Source: Streptomyces sp. BA2 (GTDB lineage: Bacteria; Actinomycetota; Actinomycetes; Streptomycetales; Streptomycetaceae). From it: a stretch of 64,000 nt of DNA. Below, one piece after another: positions 160-41,777 of this stretch (the first letter of the stretch is position 1; each line of letters starts with the position of its first letter). Both the position numbers and the translations under genes were made by a program. The stretch is taken from positions 2,802,001 through 2,866,000 of the forward strand of contig NZ_WSRO01000002.1 in assembly GCF_009769735.1 (NCBI RefSeq), read 5' to 3'. The notes under the pieces are model-generated. The model made no database searches. It saw nothing but the letters and a program-made list of their open reading frames with translations, and was not told where the DNA came from.

Positions 160-442
160 GGAGCGAGAAGCGTGGATGGGGACGAGTAGCGGCGTACGCG
201 GCCATGAGCGACCCGGGGACGGTGTGAGCCCGGGGGCAGGCACGACGCGAAGATCACCCCGGAGCCGCCGGAAGAAAGCCGAAGCCCAGGCAGAGGCCAG
301 TAGACCCGGCATCGCGACCCCAATGAGGGGGCTTTCCCGAGCGCCACACGCGTGGGGAAGGCCAAGGAGGGTGGTACCGCGGGAGCGCGACAAGCGGCTC
401 TCGTCCCTCCGACGGAACGGAATCGTCCGCCGGAGGAAGCGC
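160..442 (+). promoter_or_regulatory. T-box riboswitch (tRNA-Ile sensing) of ileS
   Basis: The leader carries the conserved T-box core AGGGTGGTACCGCGG at 368-382, whose TGGT bulge pairs with the uncharged tRNA acceptor end. A candidate isoleucine specifier codon ATC lies at 253-255 in a GAAGATCA loop, and a GACGAGTAG-like stem I segment at 181-189. There is no U-run terminator. Instead CCTCC at 406-410 is complementary to the ileS Shine-Dalgarno GGAGG at 432-436, while CCCT in the same segment can pair with AGGG of the T-box. This matches the translational type of T-box known for actinobacterial ileS: uncharged tRNA-Ile would free the ribosome-binding site. Confidence 0.85.
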
Positions 443-443
443 G

Positions 444-3400
444 TTGAACACGCAGCCGCAGTACCGCCAGGTGCCCGCCCAGGTCGACCTGCCCGCCCTT
501 GAGCACGCCGTGCTCGACTTCTGGCGCGAGCAGAAGATCTTCGCCAAGAGCCTCGAACAGTCCGAGGGCCGCCCCGAGTGGGTCTTCTACGAGGGCCCGC
601 CCACCGCCAACGGCATGCCGGGCGCCCACCACATCGAGGCCCGCGTCTTCAAGGACGTCTTCCCGCGCTTCCGCACCATGCGGGGCTACCACGTCGCCCG
701 CAAGGCCGGCTGGGACTGCCACGGCCTCCCGGTCGAGCTCGCGGTCGAGAAGGAGCTCGGGTTCAACGGCAAGAAGGACATCGAGGCGTACGGCATCGCC
801 GAGTTCAACGCCAAGTGCCGCGAGTCCGTGACCCGGCACACCGACGCCTTCGCCGACCTCACGACCCGCATGGGCTACTGGACCGACCTCGACGGCGCAT
901 ACCGCACGATGAACCCCGAGTACATCGAGTCGGTCTGGTGGTCCCTGAAGGAGATCTTCAACAAGGACCTCCTGGTCCAGGACCACCGCGTCGCCCCTTG
1001 GTGCCCGCGCTGCGGCACCGGCCTCTCCGACCACGAGCTTGCGCAGGGGTACGAGACGGTCGTCGACCCGTCCGTCTTCGTCCGCTTCCCGCTCACCGGC
1101 GGCCCGCTGGCGGGCGAGGCGGCCCTCCTGGTGTGGACGACCACTCCGTGGACCCTCGTCTCCAACACGGCGGTCGCCGCGCACCCGGACGTCACGTACG
1201 TCGTCGCGTCGAACGGTGAAGAGAAGCTCGTGGTCGCCGAGCCGCTCGTCGAGAAGGCACTCGGCGAGGGCTGGGAGGTCACCGGGCAGAAGTTCACCGG
1301 CGCCGAGATGGAGCGCTGGAACTACCAACGCCCCTTCGAGCTGGTCGAGTTCCCGGCTCCGGCCCACTTCGTGGTCAACGCCGACTACGTGACCACCGAG
1401 GACGGCACCGGTCTGGTCCACCAGTCCCCCGCCTTCGGTGAGGACGACCTCAAGGTCTGCCGCTCGTACGGCCTCCCGGTCGTGAACCCGGTGCGCCCCG
1501 ACGGCACCTTCGAGGAGGACGTCCCGCTCGTAGGCGGTGTCTTCTTCAAGAAGGCCGACGAAAAGCTCACCGAGGACCTCCAGGACCGCGGTCTGCTCTT
1601 CAAGCACATCCCGTACGAGCACAGCTACCCGCACTGCTGGCGCTGCCACACGGCGCTCCTGTACTACGCGCAGCCGTCCTGGTACATCCGCACCACGGCC
1701 ATCAAGGACCGTCTCCTCCAGGAGAACGAGAAGACCAACTGGTTCCCCGACTCGGTCAAGCACGGCCGCTTCGGCGACTGGCTGAACAACAACGTCGACT
1801 GGGCGCTGTCCCGCAACCGCTACTGGGGCACCCCGCTGCCCATCTGGCGCTGCGAGGAAGGCCACTTGACGTGCGTGGGCTCGCGCGCCGAGCTCTCCGA
1901 CCTGACGGGCACCGACCAGTCGGAACTCGACCCGCACCGCCCGTACATCGACGCGGTCACCTTCCCCTGCCCGACCTGCCAGGAGACCGCGACGCGCGTC
2001 CCCGAGGTCATCGACGCCTGGTACGACTCCGGTTCGATGCCGTTCGCGCAGTGGGGATACCCGTACAAGAACAAGGAGCTCTTCGAGAGCCGGTACCCGG
2101 CGCAGTTCATCTCGGAGGCCATCGACCAGACCCGCGGCTGGTTCTACACGCTCATGGCGGTGGGCACCCTGGTCTTCGACAAGTCCTCGTACGAGAACGT
2201 CGTGTGCCTCGGCCACATCCTCGCCGAGGACGGCCGCAAGATGTCCAAGCACCTGGGCAACATCCTCCAGCCGATCCCGCTCATGGACCAGCACGGCGCC
2301 GACGCGGTGCGCTGGTTCATGGCGGCCGGCGGCTCCCCGTGGGCGGCGCGCCGCGTGGGTCACGGCACCATCCAGGAGGTCGTCCGCAAGACGCTCCTCA
2401 CGTACTGGAACACGGTCGCCTTCCAGGCCCTGTACGCCCGTACGTCGAAGTGGGCCCCCAGCGACGCCGACCCGGCGCCCGCCGACCGCCCGCTCCTGGA
2501 CCGCTGGCTGCTCAGCGAGCTGCACGCGCTCACCGACCAGGTCACCCAGGCCCTGGAGGGCTACGACACCCAGCGCGCGGGCAAGCTCCTGTCCACGTTC
2601 GTCGACAACCTCTCCAACTGGTACGTACGCCGTTCGCGCCGCCGCTTCTGGCAGGGCGACAAGGCGGCGCTGCGCACCCTGCACGAGGTCCTGGAGACGG
2701 TCACCCGCCTGATGGCCCCGCTGACGCCGTTCATCACGGAGCGCGTCTGGCAGGACCTGGTGGTGCCGGTCGCTCCGGACGCCCCGGAGTCGGTCCACCT
2801 GACGTCCTGGCCCGAGGCCGATCTGTCGGCGATCGACCCGGACCTGTCGAAGCAGATGGTCCTCGTGCGCCGCCTGGTGGAGCTGGGCCGCGCCACGCGC
2901 GCGGAGTCGGGCGTCAAGACCCGTCAGCCGCTGTCGCGCGCGCTGATCGCGGCCACGGGCTTCGAGTCGCTCAACCCCGAACTGCACGCCCAGATCACCG
3001 AGGAGCTCAATGTCTCCTCGCTCGCGTCGCTCTCCGAGGTCGGCGGCTCACTGGTCGACACGACCGCGAAGGCCAACTTCCGCGCGCTGGGCAAGCGGTT
3101 CGGCAAGGGCGTCCAGGCGGTCGCCAAGGCCGTCGCCGACGCCGACGCGGCCGCGCTGTCCCTGGCCCTGCGCGAGGGCACGGCTTCGGTCGAGGTCGAC
3201 GGCGAGACGGTGACGCTGGCCCCGGACGAGGTCATCATCACGGAGACCCCGCGCGAGGGCTGGTCGGTGGCGTCCGACTCCGGTGCCACGGTCGCCCTCG
3301 ACCTGGAGATCACGGAGGAGCTGCGCCGGGCAGGCCTTGCCCGTGACGCGATCCGCCTGATCCAGGAGGCCCGCAAGAACAGCGGCCTGGACGTCGCGGA

Positions 3401-40337: not shown

Positions 40338-40470
40338 CCGATCACTGTAGGGCGGCGGGTGATGCGCGCCTGAGGGCGCGGCGAGGAGATCTCTGACACA
40401 CCGTCACTGCCCATGACCGCACAGCTGCCCTACCTATCCCGGGGCGCCAACGGCTAGGGTTGCCGTGCAG

Positions 40471-40567
40471 AGCACTCGCGGGAGCCCGGACGCACCGGGC
40501 TGAGAGGGAGGCTGGACGGCCTCCGACCGTACGAACCTGATCCGGGTCATGCCGGCGAAGGGAGGGG
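40471..40567 (+). promoter_or_regulatory. TPP riboswitch (THI element)
   Basis: Conserved TPP aptamer segments occur in order: GCGGGAGCCCGG near 40478, CTGAGAGGGA at 40500-40509, the variable P3 helix, ACCTGATC near 40535-40542 and CATGCCGGCGAAGGGAG at 40548-40564. The 3' end contains AAGGGAGGGG, the Shine-Dalgarno of thiO, 11 bases before its ATG. No terminator follows, so control is probably by hiding the ribosome-binding site when thiamine pyrophosphate is bound. A TAGGGT hexamer at 40455-40460 could be the -10. Confidence 0.93.
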
Positions 40568-40577
40568 CTGGACACCC

Positions 40578-41777
40578 ATGCATCCACATACACCACCCCA
40601 CGAGACGACGCGGACGACCGACGTCCTTGTCGTCGGGGGCGGCATCATCGGCCTGGTCACGGCCTGGCGGGCGGCCCAGCGCGGCCTGTCCGTGGCGGTC
40701 GTGGACCCCGAGCCCGGCGGCGGCGCGGCGCAGGTCGCCGCGGGCATGCTGGCCGCCGTCACCGAGCTGCACTACGGGGAGCAGACGCTGCTCGCCCTGA
40801 ATGTGGCCTCCGCACAGCGCTATCCCGACTTCGCGGCCGAGCTGACGGAGGCGAGCGGCCGCGATCTCGGCTACCGCGCGTGCGGCACGCTCGCCGTCGC
40901 GCTCGACTCCGACGACCGCGCCCACCTGCGGGAGCTGCACACCCTTCAGCAGCAGTCGGGACTCGCGTCGGAGTGGCTGAGCGGGCGCGAGTGCCGCCGC
41001 CTGGAGCCGATGCTCGCGCCGGGCGTCCGGGGCGGCCTTCGGGTCGACGGCGATCACCAGATCGACCCGCGCAGGCTCTCCGCGGCACTCCTCGTGGCCT
41101 GCGAGCGCGCGGGCGTGATCTTCCACCACGCGTGGGCGGAGCGCCTCTCGGCCGCGGGCAACCGGGCCACCGGGGTCGTCCTCGCCGACGGCACCGCGCT
41201 GGAGGCCGGTCAGACCGTGCTCGCCGCGGGCAGCCTCAGCGGGCGCATCGCCGGGGTCCCGGAGGGCGTTCTGCCGCCCGTGCGCCCCGTGAAGGGGCAG
41301 GTCCTTCGGCTCACGGTGCCGGAGCGGTACGCGCCGTTCCTGAGCCGCACCGTGCGCGCCGTCGTGCGCGGCAGCGACGTCTACCTGGTGCCGCGCGAGA
41401 ACGGCGAGCTCGTCGTCGGCGCGACCAGTGAGGAGCTCGGCTGGGACACGACGGTCACGGCCGGCGGCGTGTACGAGCTCCTTCGGGACGCCCACGAGCT
41501 CGTACCGGGCATCACGGAACTGCCGCTGACGGAGACCCGCGCGGGCCTGCGCCCCGGCTCCCCCGACAACGCGCCGATGCTCGGCCCGACCGCGCTCCCC
41601 GGCCTCCAGCTGGCCACCGGGCACTTCCGCAACGGCGTTCTCCTGACGCCGGTCACCGGTGACGTGATGGCGCACGCCCTGACCACCGGTGAACTGCCCG
41701 ACGAGGCGCGGGGGTTCACCCCTCTGCGCTTCGCCCGCACCCCCCTTACGCAGCGCTTCATGGAGCAGCCCGCATGA
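40578..41777 (+). CDS. thiO: glycine oxidase ThiO
   Basis: FAD-dependent amine oxidase making dehydroglycine (iminoacetate) for the thiazole moiety of thiamine, 399 aa. VLVVGGGIIGLVTAWRAAQRG near 17-37 binds FAD. AAGMLAAVTE, VKGQVLRL, YLVPRENGELVVGATSEE, ETRAGLRPGSPDNAPMLG and ATGHFRNGVLL are DAO-family motifs. It is the first gene of thiO-thiS-thiG under the TPP riboswitch and overlaps thiS by 4 bp (ATGA). Confidence 0.96.
   Translation: MHPHTPPHETTRTTDVLVVGGGIIGLVTAWRAAQRGLSVAVVDPEPGGGAAQVAAGMLAAVTELHYGEQTLLALNVASAQRYPDFAAELTEASGRDLGYRACGTLAVALDSDDRAHLRELHTLQQQSGLASEWLSGRECRRLEPMLAPGVRGGLRVDGDHQIDPRRLSAALLVACERAGVIFHHAWAERLSAAGNRATGVVLADGTALEAGQTVLAAGSLSGRIAGVPEGVLPPVRPVKGQVLRLTVPERYAPFLSRTVRAVVRGSDVYLVPRENGELVVGATSEELGWDTTVTAGGVYELLRDAHELVPGITELPLTETRAGLRPGSPDNAPMLGPTALPGLQLATGHFRNGVLLTPVTGDVMAHALTTGELPDEARGFTPLRFARTPLTQRFMEQPA

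Follow-up and report, generated by a model that had tools for sequence, protein, structure and literature searches.

A housekeeping type 2 isoleucyl-tRNA synthetase of Streptomyces sp. BA2 with a natural GXHH signature, expected mupirocin insensitivity at the target, and a probable T-box leader

The window, a stretch of 64,000 nucleotides from Streptomyces sp. BA2, belongs to a genome of 10.04 Mb in 2 contigs that is estimated to be 100% complete. Near its beginning lies ileS, the gene for isoleucyl-tRNA synthetase (IleRS), whose TTG start is preceded by a Shine-Dalgarno sequence, GGAGG, at positions 432–436; the features of the gene and its leader are collected in Table 1. The translated protein scored 905.4 bits against the ileS equivalog model TIGR00392, which has a cut-off of 621.4 and thereby places it among the isoleucyl-tRNA synthetases, and the Pfam domains tRNA-synt_1, Anticodon_1, and DUF5915 were found within it. 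The protein is of type 2 (IleRS2), scoring 903 bits to structure 1ile and 899 bits to 8c8w as against 347 bits to 1ffy, and its position in the phylogenetic tree described below, far from the IleRS1-like sequences, agrees with this assignment.

Table 1. Features of ileS and its leader in the window
Feature	Position	Strand	Remarks
Predicted T-box leader RNA of ileS, RF00230	164..411	+	50.6 bits, below gathering score 93
AUC isoleucine specifier codon, stem I	253..255	+	by eye on Rfam alignment
T-box hairpin with GGGUGGUACCGCGG, anti-sequestor state	366..410	+	outer helix 366–371/405–410
Alternative hairpin over Shine-Dalgarno sequence 432–436, sequestor state	406..436	+	CCUCCG 406–411 with CGGAGG 431–436
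ileS, isoleucyl-tRNA synthetase type 2, 1046 aa	444..3584	+	TTG start, stop included; TIGR00392
GAHH, HXGH to GXHH swap	621..632	+	residues 60–63; codons ggc gcc cac cac
KMSKH, second class I signature, last Ser to His	2238..2252	+	codon reading of ileS frame

The initial annotation of this DNA had read Gly-Ala-His-His in the place of the class I signature HxGH and had proposed an alignment that could have located a true HxGH at another site. Both the codons and alignments to solved structures confirmed the reading: GAHH of the window protein falls in the same column as HVGH of 1ile and GVHH of 8c8w, so the true HxGH does not lie elsewhere. With Gly in the first and His in the third position of that column, GAHH is an instance of the IleRS2 G/AXHH motif, which is defined by Gly or Ala first and His third. 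PDB entry 8c8w is listed by its depositors as mut-GVHH-PmIleRS2, a mutant of the Priestia megaterium IleRS2; GVHH was engineered into that protein, the natural form of which has HVGH, whereas GAHH of the window protein is natural.

At least 587 confirmed relatives of the window protein were present in GTDB genomes, and the best 80 of these were taken together with the window to give 81 loci. By title, 79 of the 80 related loci are from Streptomyces and 1 is from an "Actinobacteria bacterium," with identities of up to 94%. The motif was found in the context EGPPTANGMPGAHH in all 81 loci; GAHH is therefore neither a chance occurrence nor a sequencing slip, and a frame or sequence error as its source was ruled out. 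That a misalignment or sequence error conceals a genuine HxGH at another site is accordingly extremely improbable, as the structure-based alignments also speak against it and nothing was found in its favour. The second signature, in the form AEDGRKMSKH, was present in 80 of the 81 loci, the exception being a locus (L091) with a frame that ends before that point. This locus, on a contig of Streptomyces jumonjinensis, has an ileS frame that stops at 285 amino acids, reflecting either an assembly error or a broken gene. GAHH was likewise found in all of the best 120 of 8000 protein matches to the window protein, and it is what the housekeeping IleRS of the genus usually carries, not a peculiarity of the species in the window. 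One assembly (G233) contained two related GXHH ileS genes (L212 and L213), one of which has a TAG in frame; with 7% contamination listed for this assembly, the two possibly do not derive from one organism.

The annotation's further claim that this is the only ileS was borne out, as a single place in the genome, the window ileS itself, scored over the TIGR00392 cut-off, and the next two places by score are valyl-tRNA synthetase (ValRS) genes. These runners-up, an alt_ValS-type ValRS (L008) and a standard ValRS (L009), were rejected as candidates for a second ileS. The alt_ValS-type gene, at G000:C2:7815091-7817484, represents a second valyl-tRNA synthetase of this genome beside the standard one. 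Across the genus, one ileS-level match (E up to 1e-90) was obtained in 60 of 61 genomes, that of the window included. The sole genome with two such matches (G515) carries a second ileS (L218, G515:C1:6674900-6681000) of the canonical type, with HYGH and KMSKS. A plasmid origin of the window ileS was considered and rejected, the match in the plasmid collection being one 11.85-Mb Nonomuraea record (74.8% identity over 86% of the query) that its size suggests to be a chromosome. The window protein is also recognised by the MupA/MupB models NF000257 and NF000258 at 781.6 and 751.1 bits, but these scores are far under the cut-offs of 1900, and the window gene lies on the chromosome as the sole ileS.

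Upstream of ileS, a T-box leader was recovered by a relaxed search of bases 100–480 (381 bases) with an E value of 2.4e-10 at a score under the Rfam gathering score (Table 1), and a search of the whole window at the gathering score missed it. The T-box hairpin folds at −26.0 kcal/mol (z −2.77), with 1 of 200 shuffles as good; the sequestor hairpin folds at −20.3 kcal/mol (z −1.71) and is weakly better than shuffles, of which 13 of 200 are at least as good. Bases 406–410 are common to both folds, so in the window the two hairpins exclude each other, and a T-box core combined with a Shine-Dalgarno hairpin that excludes the T-box hairpin is the arrangement of a translational T-box. The core, GGGTGGTACCGCGG, was found within 700 bases upstream of the signature motif in 81 of 81 loci. 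Judged from sequence, the amount of enzyme is probably set by such a translational T-box, in which uncharged tRNA-Ile, read via the AUC specifier, would free the Shine-Dalgarno sequence, a mode of action that published comparative work also suggests. A prediction of translational T-boxes before ileS in Actinobacteria dates from 2005 (PMC1262725). Like the window leader, those described there combine a T-box before ileS with a hairpin hiding the Shine-Dalgarno sequence, and at the sequence level no difference between them and the window leader is evident. Elsewhere in the window, at 40468–40580, a TPP riboswitch scored 63.1 bits, over its Rfam gathering score.

The initial annotation had referred to a report that the GxHH exchange causes extreme mupirocin resistance in IleRS2; the report exists (Brkic et al. 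2023, PMC10485003) and fits the window enzyme. That paper attributes the hyper-resistance of IleRS2 enzymes to mupirocin to G/AXHH, which raises the Ki by ~1000-fold at most, and a tree of 379 IleRS is reported to contain 86 G/AXHH IleRS2 and no such sequence of type 1. Swapping the motif either way linked it to hyper-resistance: the Ki of DrIleRS2 fell from 6600 μM with ALHH to 8.1 μM with HVGH, and motif exchange raised the Ki from 0.20 to 35 μM for TtIleRS2 and from 1.08 to 460 μM for PmIleRS2. In the P. megaterium enzyme, the third-position His replaces the missing first His and was modelled to clash with mupirocin (PMC10485003). The IleRS2 of Streptomyces griseus is named in the same paper as a carrier of the motif, and its Ki for mupirocin was given as high as 10 mM, compared with 28 μM for yeast (PMC4861432). 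In open-licence literature, judged by title and term counts, no treatment of the GXHH motif was found besides PMC10485003.

Of the characterised systems, the S. griseus enzyme is very close to that of the window. Two S. griseus loci encode proteins with 89% (L090) and 91% (L080) identity to the window protein over the best segment, both with EGPPTANGMPGAHH, and S. griseus IleRS2 is of type 2 like the window enzyme (PMC4861432 and PMC10485003). As far as those papers describe it, no difference of substance separates the two, with the proviso that the millimolar Ki in print is that of SgIleRS, possibly from a strain other than those of L090 and L080. The IleRS2 of Deinococcus radiodurans (PMC10485003) has a swapped signature like that of the window and a Ki of its own of 6.6 mM, but the signature is ALHH, with Ala first, and the species belongs to another phylum.

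With high confidence, then, the window ileS is a housekeeping synthetase of the IleRS2 type with a natural GXHH signature that should confer mupirocin insensitivity at the level of the target and with probable T-box control. Because the mechanism is in print for relatives, we infer for this strain that the third His of GAHH would take over the role of the first and clash with mupirocin; in the published work, the natural and exchanged motifs explain a Ki in the millimolar range. Since the window enzyme is the only ileS-level gene, the cell should be intrinsically insensitive at the target, and a published resistance motif that is usual in the genus would explain such insensitivity without an acquired gene. 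The link between GXHH and mupirocin has been published even for this genus, and the window ileS is a housekeeping gene whose resistance motif is on record; as motif and effect are described for a very close relative, the initial reading is right but unremarkable within Streptomyces. Resistance of the species could instead arise mainly from other causes, such as poor uptake or efflux, leaving the target motif with small practical weight. For Pseudomonas, efflux has been described as one such route (PMC13188873), but the S. griseus enzyme expressed in a laboratory strain of Escherichia coli rescued growth on 100 μM mupirocin (PMC4861432), and we regard this explanation as unlikely.

Within the phylum, both signature motifs were examined in 98 rows, comprising the window and 97 loci picked for spread and not drawn at random, and a tree of these rows was built under LG+G4 by quick search, with SH-aLRT as its only support measure and a midpoint root. 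By first signature, 70 rows are GXHH, 21 are HXGH, and 7 are other. One supported group consists of 67 GXHH rows, the window included, and a second of the 21 HXGH rows and one HFGN row, the branch joining these two large groups having 83% support; the 3 remaining GXHH rows join two AVHT rows outside both. Furthest in the tree are four HLGT rows, which were labelled IleRS1-like from their length and an identity of 31–32%. HLGT thus stands for HXGH in all 4 of the IleRS1-like rows examined (L186–L189, family f20). In the class of the window, 32 of the 42 sampled rows are GXHH and 10 are HXGH, which means that not every member of the class has GXHH. Outside this class, genome G154 has GXHH and HXGH IleRS2-type genes together (L184 and L185).

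The end of the second signature differs along with the first. In the 32 GXHH rows of the class, it reads KMSKH in 26, RMSKH in 5, and KMSKN in 1, with the final Ser in none, and all 10 HXGH rows of the class have KMSKS. The 38 other GXHH rows comprise 32 with KMSKS, 2 with EMHYS, and 1 each with RMSKS, KMSKR, KMSKH, and EFSKS. Placing His at the final KMSKS position on the tree takes 3 changes; on a putative reading, it arose at the root of the class-level group, was lost in the KMSKN row, and arose separately in L190. Judged by titles, no open-licence paper was found to treat KMSKH in synthetases, and KMSKH is absent from the main text of PMC10485003, which presents a KMSKS alignment in its Figure 2b. 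His or Asn at the KMSKS end of the sampled GXHH enzymes of the class looks less known than GXHH itself.

These distributions bear on whether mupirocin has anything to do with the present maintenance of the motif. GXHH could be an old fixed trait of an IleRS2 lineage, with mupirocin insensitivity as a by-product that is not currently selected: the swap is old, since the single supported group of 67 sampled GXHH rows extends far beyond the genus, and all 32 class-level GXHH rows carry the further change at the KMSKS end. Set against this are the 10 of 42 class rows of the canonical type and, as stated in PMC10485003, the observations that the canonical motif works about equally in IleRS2, DrIleRS2 with HVGH keeping its kcat/KM, and that a Deinococcus-Thermus clade was inferred to have reverted, so catalysis does not demand GXHH. 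We consider the by-product explanation quite possible without being probable.

A distant IleRS2-like branch, made up of families f43 and f44, departs further from both signatures. Family f44 corresponds to the Gaiellaceae by name, since P0122, titled "Gaiellaceae bacterium," is 100% identical to the protein of L182. In f43, GVHH is accompanied by EFSKS or EMHYS (L178–L180) or by DMHYS (L233), and in f44, AVHT is accompanied by EMHGS (L182–L183). In the best 120 of 8000 protein matches for this branch, a set biased by being nearest to the query, the first signature was xVHT or xLHT throughout and the second EMHG or EMHS. Among 14 further f44 genes, 7 have GVHH or GIHH, 3 GVHT, 2 AAHH, and 2 AVHT; at the KMSKS position, the first Lys has become Glu and Ser has become His in all 14, the second Lys is kept in 5 (EMHKS), and Arg stands there in 2. 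The motifs at this position across the branch are EMHKS, EMHGS, EMHRS, EMHSS, EMHYS, DMHYS, and EFSKS, so that the first lysine is gone in every branch gene examined and both lysines are gone in many. Open-licence literature yielded nothing on Gaiella together with isoleucyl-tRNA synthetase and, among the matches listed, nothing on a lost KMSKS in Thermoleophilia and no title on EMHKS, EMHGS, EMHYS, or EMHRS on synthetases. About as likely as not, the class I signatures of IleRS2 have loosened more broadly and GXHH is a single part of that process, accompanied in the class of the window by the change at the KMSKS end and in f43 and f44 by the departures just described. A minor IleRS2 clade is described in PMC10485003, to which this branch may correspond. 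The observations on the KMSKS end and on f43 and f44 are distinct from the main finding, look less known, and merit specialist attention; they would carry more weight than it if the Gaiellaceae-type enzymes proved active.

With respect to copy number in this branch, one ileS-level match (E up to 1e-90) was obtained in 25 of 26 f44 genomes and none in 1, with 22 of the 25 matches over the ileS cut-off and 3 below it, one of these being partial; all 4 f43 genomes had one such match, over the cut-off. Because a second ileS-level gene was not found in these 30 genomes and the matches are mostly over the cut-off, the branch genes are likely the working IleRS of their genomes. Were the extreme members active, they would charge isoleucine with neither of the textbook class I motifs, and active enzymes of the Gaiellaceae type would make it testable how far both signatures can decay in an essential synthetase. 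The protein of Gaiella occulta (P0197) scored 619.6 bits, against the TIGR00392 cut-off of 621.4.
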